Assembly: GCA_030429005.1 (NCBI GenBank)
Contig: JAUIDP010000004.1
Coordinates: forward strand, 1-64,000
Direction: 5' to 3'
From: Gammaproteobacteria bacterium
GTDB lineage: Bacteria > Pseudomonadota > Gammaproteobacteria > Steroidobacterales > Woeseiaceae
DNA length: 64,000 nt
The notes under the pieces: model-generated
The model's input: only the letters and a program-made list of their open reading frames with translations
What the model was told of the DNA's origin: nothing
Databases searched by the model: none
Translations under genes and position numbers: made by a program
Part shown: positions 1,887-8,817 of the stretch, piece by piece
Layout: each line of letters starts with the position of its first letter
Numbering within the stretch: the first letter of the stretch is position 1

Positions 1887-4682
1887 ATGAAAAATGGATT
1901 GATTCTCGCCGTTTGTGCGGGCCTCGCGCTGGTCAACAGTGCTGTTGCCGCGGAAGACAATGACTGGACCAACACGCTAGAGCGAATTTCGTCCGGCGTC
2001 ATCTCCATTCGTGTCGACAGCACGCGCGCGTTCGATACCGAGTGGAACTCATCGAGCCAGGCGACCGGCTTCGTTGTCGACGCAGAGCGAGGCCTGGTGC
2101 TGACCAATCGCCACGTCGTGACACCGGGACCGGTCGTTGCCGAGGCAGTATTTCGCAATAACGAAGAGGTGCGCCTGACGCCGGTTTACCGCGACCCGGT
2201 GCACGATTTCGGTTTTTTCCGCTACGACCCGGAAGACCTGAAGTACATTGAGCCGGCCGAGTTACCGCTGAAACCTGACGGCGCGGGCATCGGCCGGGAG
2301 ATCCGCGTGATCGGCAACGATGCCGGTGAGCAACTCTCGATTCTTGCAGGCACGATTGCACGACTGGACCGCAAGGCGCCGGATTACGGCCGCGGCAACT
2401 ACAACGACTTCAATACCTTCTATTTCCAGGCAGCATCCGGCACGTCCGGCGGTTCCTCCGGCTCGCCGGTCGTAAACATCGATGGCGAGGTGGTGGCGCT
2501 GAATGCCGGCGCCAACAATTCGGCAGCCAGCAGCTTCTTCTTGCCGCTCGACCGGATCGACCGGGCATTGCACCTGATCCAGGCGGGCGAGCCGGTCACC
2601 CGCGGCACGCTGCAAACGATATTCGAGCGCAAGGCGTTCGACGAGTTGCGGCGGCTTGGCCTGCAGGATGCGACCGAGCGAACGGTGCGTTCCGAGTTTC
2701 CTGAACAGACCGGCATGCTGGCGATCGAGCAGGTGATTCCGGATACGCCGGCCGACGGCAAGCTGGAGCCGGGCGATATTCTCGTGCGGGTCAACGGCGA
2801 GCTGGTCACCGAGTTCGTGCCACTGGCGGCGATGCTCGATGACAATGTTGGCAACGAGGTTGAGCTCGAGCTGGAGCGGGGTGGTCGCCAGGTGACCGAA
2901 ACGATCGAGGTGACGGACCTGCATGCCATAACCCCGAGCGAATATCTGCAGTTCGGCGATGCGATCGTGAACAACCTCTCTTACCAGCAGGCGCGTCACT
3001 ACAATCGCAACGTCGAAGGGGTTTACGTCGCCAATCCGGGCTACCTGCTGTCAAAGTCAGCCATCCCGCGTGGCGCGGTCATAACCGAGTATGACAGCGA
3101 ACCGATCACCAATATCGATGACCTTGCAAAAGCACTGGACGGTACGGCCGACGGGTCACGCGCGCAAATTCGCTTTGTCACGATGGACAGCCCGCGCAAC
3201 TCCACGGTCCGCTCATTCGAAATGGACCGGGTCTGGTTTCCGGTCAGGCATTGTGTACGAAACGACGATACGGGCGTCTGGCCGTGTCGCGAACTCGGCC
3301 CGGGCCCGGCGCCCGAGCCGCCGGAAAGCGGCAGCACACGGCTGACCAAGTATGACGATCCACGCGTGGCGGCCATAGCCGCGTCGCTGGTTGTTGTGAC
3401 CTTTGACCTCCCGTATACCGTGTCCGGCGTCGCGGATCGTCACTACTATGGCACCGGGGTGATCGTCGACAAGGACCGCGGCCTGGTGCTGGTCGACCGG
3501 AATACGGTCCCGGTAGCGATCGGTGACGTTACCGTGACATTTGCCGGCTCGCTGGAAGTGGATGCCAGGGTAGAACAGCTACACCCGGTGCATAACCTCG
3601 CCATTGTCTCTTACGACCCGAAGAGTATTGGGGATACGCCGGTGCGAACAGCCAGGTTCAACACGGAACCGTTGCAGGCTGGTGACGATGTACTCGTGGT
3701 CGGCATCAAGGGTGACCACCAACTGGTACACCAGCAAAGCATCGTGTCCGCGGTTGAGCCGCTGGTGTTGCCGTTGTCGCGGACGCTGCGTTTTCGCGAT
3801 GCCAATATCGAGGGCATCAGCCTCGTTAACCCGATGGAGGTGGACGGCGTCCTGGTCGACAAGCGCGGCCGCGTGTCGGCACTGTGGTCGAGCTTTGCCA
3901 TCCAGACGGGCAGCGAGTCGGCGCAGTTCAATCGTGGCGTCGGCGCCGACCTGGTGGCGGAGTTTGTCGATATCGTGCGCAATGACCGGACCTACTATTC
4001 ACTCGAAGCGGAGTTCGTCTATGCGCCGCTGTTTGCAGCGCGCAACCGTGGCGTGGACGAGGAATGGATCGAGAAACTGGAGAACAACAATCCCGTGTTC
4101 CGGCGGGCGCTCAGTATCAACCGCATTGTTGCAGGAACGCCGGCGGCAGAGCATCTGAAAAACGGCGACTTCGTGCTCGCGATTGACGACAAGGTGGTGA
4201 CGTCGTTCCGCGAGGTTGAAAAGGCGGTGCAAAAAGAGTCAGTCAAAGTGACCGTCTGGCGCAATAGCGAAGCCCTGGATATCGAGGTCGCGACAGCGCC
4301 GCTGGACACCCGCGGCATCGACCGGGCGGTGTCCTGGGCCGGTGCATTGCTGCAGGACCCGCACCGCGCCATGGCGGCGCAGCGCGGCATCGAGCCGGAT
4401 GGTGTCTACGTGGCGTTCTTCAGCTACGGATCGCCGGCGACGCGGTATGGACTGTGGGCAGGCAGGCGCCTCGTCGAAGTGGACGAAACACCCACGCCGA
4501 ACCTGCAGGCATTCGTTGACGCCATTGCCGGCAAGAAAGACCAGGCGTCGGTACGCCTGAAGACAGTCACATGGAACGGCGCCGTCGAAGTGATTACGCT
4601 GAAGCTCGACAACCAGTACTGGCCGGCGTACGAGATTCGGCGCACAGAGAATGGCTGGCAACGCTCGTCGATCGGCAGTTGA
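1887..4682 (+). CDS. Tandem HtrA/Nma111-like serine protease with PDZ domains, degenerate second protease half
   Basis: This 931-residue exported protein starts at ATG 1887, with AGG 6 bases upstream; a TTG two codons earlier is less likely. It has a signal peptide ending near AVAAED. The first half (about residues 25-240) is a trypsin-fold HtrA protease with H76 (TNRHVV), D107 (PVHDFG) and S191 (GGSSGSPV), followed by PDZ-like regions (about 265-460). The second half (about 485-690) repeats the same layout: GLVLVDRNTV aligns with GLVLTNRHVV and HPVHNLAIVSYDP aligns with DPVHDFGFFRYDP. There His and Asp have become Asn and no GxSG is present. Two more PDZ-like regions follow to the end. This active-plus-dead architecture is that of yeast Nma111/Ynm3. 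It is probably a periplasmic quality-control protease. Its 3' end overlaps the M23 gene. Confidence 0.85.
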   Translation: MKNGLILAVCAGLALVNSAVAAEDNDWTNTLERISSGVISIRVDSTRAFDTEWNSSSQATGFVVDAERGLVLTNRHVVTPGPVVAEAVFRNNEEVRLTPVYRDPVHDFGFFRYDPEDLKYIEPAELPLKPDGAGIGREIRVIGNDAGEQLSILAGTIARLDRKAPDYGRGNYNDFNTFYFQAASGTSGGSSGSPVVNIDGEVVALNAGANNSAASSFFLPLDRIDRALHLIQAGEPVTRGTLQTIFERKAFDELRRLGLQDATERTVRSEFPEQTGMLAIEQVIPDTPADGKLEPGDILVRVNGELVTEFVPLAAMLDDNVGNEVELELERGGRQVTETIEVTDLHAITPSEYLQFGDAIVNNLSYQQARHYNRNVEGVYVANPGYLLSKSAIPRGAVITEYDSEPITNIDDLAKALDGTADGSRAQIRFVTMDSPRNSTVRSFEMDRVWFPVRHCVRNDDTGVWPCRELGPGPAPEPPESGSTRLTKYDDPRVAAIAASLVVVTFDLPYTVSGVADRHYYGTGVIVDKDRGLVLVDRNTVPVAIGDVTVTFAGSLEVDARVEQLHPVHNLAIVSYDPKSIGDTPVRTARFNTEPLQAGDDVLVVGIKGDHQLVHQQSIVSAVEPLVLPLSRTLRFRDANIEGISLVNPMEVDGVLVDKRGRVSALWSSFAIQTGSESAQFNRGVGADLVAEFVDIVRNDRTYYSLEAEFVYAPLFAARNRGVDEEWIEKLENNNPVFRRALSINRIVAGTPAAEHLKNGDFVLAIDDKVVTSFREVEKAVQKESVKVTVWRNSEALDIEVATAPLDTRGIDRAVSWAGALLQDPHRAMAAQRGIEPDGVYVAFFSYGSPATRYGLWAGRRLVEVDETPTPNLQAFVDAIAGKKDQASVRLKTVTWNGAVEVITLKLDNQYWPAYEIRRTENGWQRSSIGS

Positions 4683-5616
4683 CCGCCGGGCGATCCGGTC
4701 TCTGCTGCCGCTGCTGCTGGTCATAGCAGCAACTGCAGCGGCGCAAGATCTGTACAAGTACAAAGGCAAGGACGGCAACTGGATTTACTCGGACAGGCGT
4801 CCTGTTGATGTCGAGGGAATCGAGAGCCGCGTGCTGCCCGTTAGAGAGTCAGACAGTATCGTCGATGTCGATCATAGCTTCGACGACAACCTGGTGACGC
4901 TCACCGCGCGCAACGATTTCTACGCGCCTGTCGAATTGCGCATTGAGTTTACCGAAACGCGCGACCTGGTGATGCCGGGTTCGGAGCATCCTTTGGCCTG
5001 GGTGCTGCCCGCACGAACTGAAATGCCGATTCTGCAATTGCCGATATCTGACAAAGCAATCCAGCCGGCGCTGAAGTACCAGTTTCGCTACATGCCGGGT
5101 GATCCGCGTGCAAGACATGAGCCTGGCGAGCCGTATCGAGCGCCGTTCGCGATTTCCACGGATCACCGTATCACGCAGGCCTATCCGGACGGCGTGACGC
5201 ACCGGACGATTGACAGCTACTACGCGGTCGATTTTGCCATGCCGATCGGCACGGACATCGTCGCGGCGCGCGCCGGAATGGTATTTGCCGTTGCAAGCAC
5301 CAACTTCCGGTCCGGTCTCGATATTGAGACGGACGGGCCGGCGGCGAACGTTGTACGCATCCTGCACGACGATGGCACGTATGCGATCTACGCACATCTC
5401 AATACAAATTCGATACGAGTCAAGCCAGGCGACTATGTCGAACGCGGCCAGTACATCGCCGATTCAGGCAATACCGGGTTTTCTTCCGGGCCACATTTGC
5501 ATTTTGCCGTGGTGCGCAATATCGGCCTGCAGGTCGCCTCTGTGCCAGTGACTTTTCTCGGTCCCAACTCCGGCAGCGTGGAACCGGCTTCCGGAAACGT
5601 GATGACGGCGTACTAG
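4651..5616 (+). CDS. M23 (LytM-type) metalloendopeptidase with N-terminal DUF4124
   Basis: A 321-residue exported protein, starting inside the last 32 bases of the preceding protease gene, so the two are translationally close. It has a hydrophobic signal segment (RSLLPLLLVIAATAAAQ), then a DUF4124-like block (LYKYKGKDGNWIYSDRRP), then a beta-rich linker and a C-terminal M23 peptidase domain (about 165-310). Visible peptidase features are YYAVDFAMPIGTDIVAARAG, the zinc-ligand pair HLHF near residue 278, and the G-rich SGNTGFSSGPH loop. The first zinc histidine would be the one in THRTID, in the longer-loop variant of the family. Expected role: cutting or sensing peptidoglycan peptides in the periplasm. 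Confidence 0.88.
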   Translation: MAGNARRSAVDRRAIRSLLPLLLVIAATAAAQDLYKYKGKDGNWIYSDRRPVDVEGIESRVLPVRESDSIVDVDHSFDDNLVTLTARNDFYAPVELRIEFTETRDLVMPGSEHPLAWVLPARTEMPILQLPISDKAIQPALKYQFRYMPGDPRARHEPGEPYRAPFAISTDHRITQAYPDGVTHRTIDSYYAVDFAMPIGTDIVAARAGMVFAVASTNFRSGLDIETDGPAANVVRILHDDGTYAIYAHLNTNSIRVKPGDYVERGQYIADSGNTGFSSGPHLHFAVVRNIGLQVASVPVTFLGPNSGSVEPASGNVMTAY

Positions 5617-7905: not shown

Positions 7906-8817
7906 GTGAACAAAGACAATGACTTGATGCCGGTTGTCGACGGGTTTCCACGACCGGACTGGGCCGCGATTGCTGATGTTGTGTTCGCAGCGCCGGAAGA
8001 GGCCTGGGCCGCCGAGTGGCTGGTATGGTCTCGCCGATGGCTGAATGCGCTTATCGAGCATTTGCCGGACGGCTACAGCATTGTCGAAACAGATAACTTT
8101 TTTTTGCTTACTGCGCAAGAAGACCGCTACGTGAGTCTGTTTTCTCGGTTCCTTGAAAGAACGCGAAAGAGCATTCTTGCCAACCTTGACGGAATCGCGG
8201 CCGACAAAGGTTTCGGCAAGCATGTTGTCCTGATGTTTGACGACCAGGAACATTACTACCGGTATAACCTGTACTTTTATCCCGAGGAGGGCGAGTTTGT
8301 TCTCAGCTCGGGGATGTATTTGAACGACGGGTATGGCCACTTTGTATTTCCCTATGTCGAGATGTATGAGGCAGAAGCTACTGCGGCACACGAACTTACG
8401 CATGCATGTCTCAGCCACTTGCCGCTTCCGCTTTGGCTAAACGAAGGGTTCGCGGTTACGATGGAGGACGATCTGTGTGGCTCGGCACCGCTTCGTATGG
8501 ATAACGAACGTCTCGGCGAACATCATGCGTTCTGGAATGCCGAGACAGTACAGGAGTTCTGGAGCGGCAGGTCCTTTGGACGCACAGATGAAGGAAATAC
8601 GTTGAGCTACGAGCTTGCACGATACTGTTTACGCGCCTTGGCTCATGACTATGAAGTGTTTGCAGCGTTTGCCAACTCGGCTTCTTTCGAAGATGGTGGG
8701 GAAGCCGCTGCGCAGGAACACTACGGAGGAAGTCTCGGCGGTGTAATCCAGCAGTTCTTCGGCGAAGGCGACTGGCACCCGCAACCTGAACGCTGGCCAG
8801 GCGCCAATGCACCATGA
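7906..8817 (+). CDS. Zincin-like (gluzincin-type) putative peptidase
   Basis: A 303-residue soluble protein with no signal peptide or membrane segment. It starts at GTG 7906 with GGGAG 9 bases upstream. The motif HELTHACL, followed about 18 residues later by LNEGFAVTME, gives HExxH plus a downstream glutamate, the zinc site of gluzincins. The rest is not similar to a family I can name. The stop overlaps the start of the next gene by 11 bases, so the two are probably co-translated. Substrate unknown. Confidence 0.7.
   Translation: MNKDNDLMPVVDGFPRPDWAAIADVVFAAPEEAWAAEWLVWSRRWLNALIEHLPDGYSIVETDNFFLLTAQEDRYVSLFSRFLERTRKSILANLDGIAADKGFGKHVVLMFDDQEHYYRYNLYFYPEEGEFVLSSGMYLNDGYGHFVFPYVEMYEAEATAAHELTHACLSHLPLPLWLNEGFAVTMEDDLCGSAPLRMDNERLGEHHAFWNAETVQEFWSGRSFGRTDEGNTLSYELARYCLRALAHDYEVFAAFANSASFEDGGEAAAQEHYGGSLGGVIQQFFGEGDWHPQPERWPGANAP

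Follow-up and report, generated by a model that had tools for sequence, protein, structure and literature searches.

The second protease half of Nma111 is degenerate. Chaperone activity has been described for the yeast protein, also known as Ynm3 (PMC4877387), and the PDZ_1 domain (PF12812) has been tied to the fungal HtrAs in an account that grouped the yeast protease with plant and alga proteins and found certain bacterial proteins to be closer to the yeast enzyme than to the human one (PMC5982838). The serine motif of Aspergillus Nma111 is GxSxS (PMC7804941) and the Neurospora orthologue carries its triad at His120, Asp151 and Ser234, a spacing of 31/83; the His-Asp interval of 31 is not exclusive, since an Arabidopsis DegP6-like protein has a spacing of 31/78 (PMC3434108). 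Deg7 (DegP7), a clade III plant Deg/HtrA of about 1000-1100 aa found in the chloroplast stroma, has the order protease-PDZ-PDZ-inactive protease-PDZ-PDZ, and trimerisation of AtDeg7 is reported to require the inactive domain (PMC3473262). In bacteria, the HtrA pseudoprotease MamO is described as activating the protease MamE and as binding metal via its repurposed HtrA domain (PMC4794232). Within the literature searched, represented by partial texts, there was no description of a double HtrA from bacteria in which one half is inactive.

The window, the whole 64,000-nucleotide stretch of DNA analysed here, encodes a bacterial protein whose two protease and four PDZ domains are arranged as protease-PDZ-PDZ-protease-PDZ-PDZ (Table 1). 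Pfam matches comprised Trypsin_2 (two), PDZ_1 (two) and PDZ_6 (four). Trypsin_2 and PDZ matches over cut-off, together with an HtrA fold, place the protein in the HtrA superfamily; the second protease domain taken alone scored barely above the Trypsin_2 cut-off (28.5 vs 27.6 bits). The score of the whole protein lay below the cut-off of TIGR02037 (Do/DegP; 149.2 vs 416.2 bits), outside that family, and the NCBIfam MamE model, which has a cut-off of 800 bits, gave 41.7. Judged by its N-terminus alone, the protein is probably secreted to the periplasm. In a structure model of the full-length protein, pLDDT fell below 50 at residues 145-189 and 209-216, corresponding to the first-half active-site loops, which were again poorly modelled when the half was modelled separately.

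Table 1 Features of the double HtrA gene, with positions in the window
Feature	Position	Strand	Evidence
Double HtrA gene, 931 aa, (protease-PDZ-PDZ_1) x2	1887..4682	+	ATG start; ORF and Pfam
Signal-peptide-like N-terminus, residues 1-22	1887..1952	+	By inspection; crude pattern in 102/116 aligned rows
Active-type HtrA protease domain, residues 27-240	1965..2606	+	
Catalytic His76	2112..2114	+	113/113 distinct homologues
Catalytic Asp107	2205..2207	+	113/113
Catalytic Ser191 in GGSSGSP	2457..2459	+	Ser 113/113; GxSxS 110/113
PDZ1, residues 245-345	2619..2921	+	PDZ_6, 48.9 bits
PDZ2, PDZ_1 (PF12812) type, residues 346-447	2922..3227	+	54.6 bits, cut-off 28
Linker with Cys456 (3252-3254) and Cys467 (3285-3287), possible disulfide	3228..3350	+	Both Cys 113/113
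Pseudoprotease domain, residues 489-702	3351..3992	+	
Asn539 at His position	3501..3503	+	Asn 105/113
Asn570 at Asp position	3594..3596	+	Asn 112/113, Asp 1
Residue 652 (Val) at aligned Ser position	3840..3842	+	Ser 0/113
PDZ3, residues 703-805	3993..4301	+	PDZ_2, 45.7 bits
PDZ4, PDZ_1 type, residues 806-908	4302..4610	+	PF12812, 35.3 bits, cut-off 28
C-terminal tail, counterpart of the first half's closing tail	4611..4679	+	hhalign register

The preliminary description had read the protein as repeating its own layout, and this was borne out. Residues 23-480 and 485-931 aligned over 433 collinear columns (profile vs profile, hhalign, E 2e-43), with the two motif pairs it had named in register. 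BLASTP of half against half gave 51.6 bits (E 1.9e-11), or 62.8 bits without composition correction, compared with 24.6 bits for the best of 200 shuffles. Profile comparison paired PDZ1 with PDZ3 (99.5%) and PDZ2 with PDZ4 (98.3%), cross pairs of PDZ domains reaching 15-63%. Since the halves are collinear and every domain has its best match in the corresponding domain of the other half, the duplication took in the complete protease-PDZ-PDZ unit together with its tail. In structure comparison both halves matched solved HtrA folds, so the second half is an HtrA fold as proposed, rather than an unrelated one; neither Nma111 nor Deg7 was among the PDB matches listed (60 of 86).

Conservation of the catalytic residues was followed in ORFs covering both halves. 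There were 134 of these, a further seven having been excluded from the alignment for insufficient coverage; dropping identical C-termini left 115, giving 116 rows with the window protein and 113 distinct homologues at 99% identity. The first-half triad was intact in every distinct homologue, and the three serine motifs that were not GxSxS were GxSxA. In the second half, the His position held Asn in 105 homologues, Ser and Asp in three each, and Thr and Tyr in one each; the Asp position was almost uniformly Asn. Both His-to-Asn and Asp-to-Asn changes had thus been read correctly from the window protein, as had the missing GxSG motif. The aligned nucleophile column, where no homologue has Ser, sits in a loop where the alignment is less sure.

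Canonical DegP, DegQ and DegS have protease and PDZ folds in common with the window protein, but consist of a single unit with a GNSGG motif, whereas the double has two units and GxSxS. Triad spacing in the doubles was 31 (His-Asp) in 116/116 rows and 84 (Asp-Ser) in 111/116; among 20 canonical ORFs the His-Asp interval was 30 in 17, 35 in one, 37 in one and not assigned in one, and the Asp-Ser interval was 72-75 in 19. PDZ_1 is not exclusive to doubles, as one canonical-type ORF (41.4 bits) scored above the double of genome G399 (30.8 bits). MamO and MamE similarly pair a bacterial HtrA pseudoprotease with an active HtrA, but as separate polypeptides with a magnetosome function, whereas here both halves are fused. 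By description, Deg7 resembles the window protein in domain order and in its inactive second protease domain; it differs in residing in the plant chloroplast stroma, the window protein coming from a bacterium and starting with a signal-like sequence. Nma111/Ynm3 is described as nuclear and pro-apoptotic in yeast, unlike the probably periplasmic window protein. The likeness to both eukaryotic proteins is one of published features, and this leaves some room for an independent bacterial duplication that merely came to resemble them, all the more as MamE-type HtrAs are reported to have duplicated and lost the triad three times independently (PMC4794232). Such convergence is nevertheless improbable, as the doubles have PDZ_1 in common with the fungal HtrAs (PMC5982838), GxSxS in common with Aspergillus Nma111 (PMC7804941) and, at 31/84, a spacing close to the 31/83 of the Neurospora orthologue (PMC3434108). 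The bacterial doubles, Nma111 and Deg7 likely form one family by descent. The Nma111-like bacterial architecture of the preliminary description is partly supported: it stands with respect to layout, PDZ_1, GxSxS, spacing, signal-like N-terminus and HtrA-fold second half, whereas the ancestral or transferred origin it raised stays conjectural and the word 'decayed' does not hold.

That word is wrong because purifying selection acts on the second half. The estimates come from 16 close pairs that share 88-99.5% identity and are not independent of one another, with dS between 0.05 and 1.5 in every one of the four segments compared. The active domain had a median dN/dS of 0.032 and PDZ1+2 one of 0.076; the medians of the pseudoprotease and of PDZ3+4 were both 0.052, and the pseudoprotease maximum was 0.136. 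No internal stops occurred in the long matches from the 60 near genomes or the 369-genome class search. The 116-row alignment cannot argue against decay by itself, its rows having been picked for covering both halves. A decaying relic would account for the loss of all three catalytic residues and for conservation below that of the active domain (0.69 vs 0.83 as the mean frequency of the commonest residue); with these dN/dS values, stop-free long matches and a conservation level equal to that of the PDZ domains, it is scarcely credible and was rejected. The catalytic residues were lost long ago, yet the second half is preserved. Conservation within the pseudoprotease domain is among the highest at the former active-site motifs (residues 536-542 and 566-570), suggesting a retained surface or pocket. 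This would suit a half that is mainly a scaffold for substrate, peptide or metal, as in MamO with its metal-binding repurposed HtrA domain (PMC4794232), rather than a lobe for oligomerisation or gating. The conserved Asn-Asn could just as well be a structural pair in the protein interior, and we regard the scaffold as rather unlikely, if less so than convergence. The reading we favour, with moderate confidence, is an HtrA/Deg-type serine protease of the periplasm, probably also a chaperone, for which the yeast protein is a precedent (PMC4877387); its fused pseudoprotease would organise the oligomer and gate the active half.

In this proposed working, the protein would be exported to the periplasm, where its PDZ domains would capture misfolded envelope proteins and the first half would cut them. 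The second half, unable to cut, may act as a permanent built-in partner building the oligomer, by analogy with the reported role of the inactive AtDeg7 domain in trimerisation (PMC3473262). Together with its two PDZ domains, it could also bind substrate and steer the active loops, or set the conformation of the active half, for which Deg7 (PMC3473262) and MamO (PMC4794232) are precedents. The sequestering or allosteric lobe suggested earlier is a reasonable inference by analogy. A putative disulfide between the invariant linker cysteines would, in the periplasm, fix the halves relative to each other. The double HtrA would work alongside ordinary Deg proteins rather than replace them: its own genome also encodes two Trypsin_2 proteins, 450 and 384 aa long, that carry the usual GNSGG motif. 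The protein offers a soluble bacterial model for control of an HtrA by a fused pseudoprotease.

The double HtrA is frequent around Woeseiaceae and scattered in the class. It occurred in 58/60 near genomes, its own included, two of which (G031 and G038) held it as contig-edge pieces only; the two exceptions had an ordinary HtrA match only (G024) or none (G048). A long second-half match was found in 25/369 genomes of the class, again including its own, with one frame of 934-1088 aa in 24 and a frame split over contigs in G745; G466 gave a 50-residue edge match. Across 398 phylum genomes, the N-half profile (E up to 1e-25) retrieved six proteins: five doubles, none from outside the class, and a single-unit protein from a different class. 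Named relatives came from Woeseiaceae and other Gammaproteobacteria, and three (L093, L095, L097) were labelled Rhodospirillaceae, which speaks against a strictly gammaproteobacterial range. The Nma111/Deg7 layout is thereby placed in free-living bacteria, in a gene that is old and conserved.

Single-unit relatives were present in six genomes of another class, 1.3-2.4 Mb in size (order search 4/55, class search 3/289). Their frames span 480-563 aa; four carry GGSSGSP, one GGGSGSP and one GSSGSP. The linker-type Cys pair was absent from the tails of all six, PDZ_1 was weak or missing in the four scanned, and triad spacing was 32/75 in the four read. The single-unit HtrA at L196 (1423-2895), which like those of L197-L201 has GxSGSP, adjoins pal-like and ybgF-like genes.

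In a tree of 21 doubles, the N halves formed one clade and the C halves another (SH-aLRT 100 and 99), and two further trees agreed; of the 113 doubles, two trees cover 21 and the careful tree 18, the latter leaving out seven long-branch rows (L125 and both halves of L114, L122 and L165). As each half forms one clade, the duplication is older than the divergence of the doubles sampled and, judged from these trees, is old within bacteria. In L114 and L122 (genomes G407 and G399) the second half is far more diverged, on a branch of ~3 changes per column. A quick tree of single-unit proteins, N halves and C halves gave an open fork. The careful tree grouped the N halves with the single-unit proteins at 91/75, unstarred and flagged by the program for the joining of the long C and canonical branches; the alternatives, N with C and C with the single-unit proteins, each had p-AU 0.207. 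Because a tree of N, C and canonical rows only has one possible shape, an ancestor of N and C apart from canonical Deg hinges on rooting; the spacing of 31 in both halves (116/116 rows) and PDZ_1 in both are supporting signs of such an ancestor. The single-unit relatives may be the type that gave rise to the double, or doubles minus one half. Tentatively, and with somewhat less than even confidence, we suggest that the Nma111/Deg7 double was invented in bacteria: a single-unit GxSGSP HtrA, of a type that persists in small-genome Proteobacteria of another class, would have been duplicated and fused, its second copy becoming inactive at once and for good, and the finished double passed to eukaryotes for use in nucleus and plastid. 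Together, doubles and single-unit relatives would let a half-by-half tree test how the fungal and plant proteins arose.

Spread of the gene by mobile elements was discounted: 50 pattern matches in viral contigs yielded no confirmed relative, and the 28 matching plasmid records were all partial, none covering 80%. In 43 named loci of >12 kb, adjoining genes included gcvPB (41/43) and an M23 peptidase (31/43). Other neighbours, identified by eye, were found in 20 loci of more distant genomes, in L085, L103 and L109 and in the window, and on these differences a dedicated partner gene was rejected; the lack of a constant neighbour is as expected for a stand-alone protein. Downstream in the window lies an M23 peptidase gene with a DUF4124 domain (4651-5616), and an ORF at 7906-8817 contains a HELTH motif and, read by eye, may encode a zinc peptidase.
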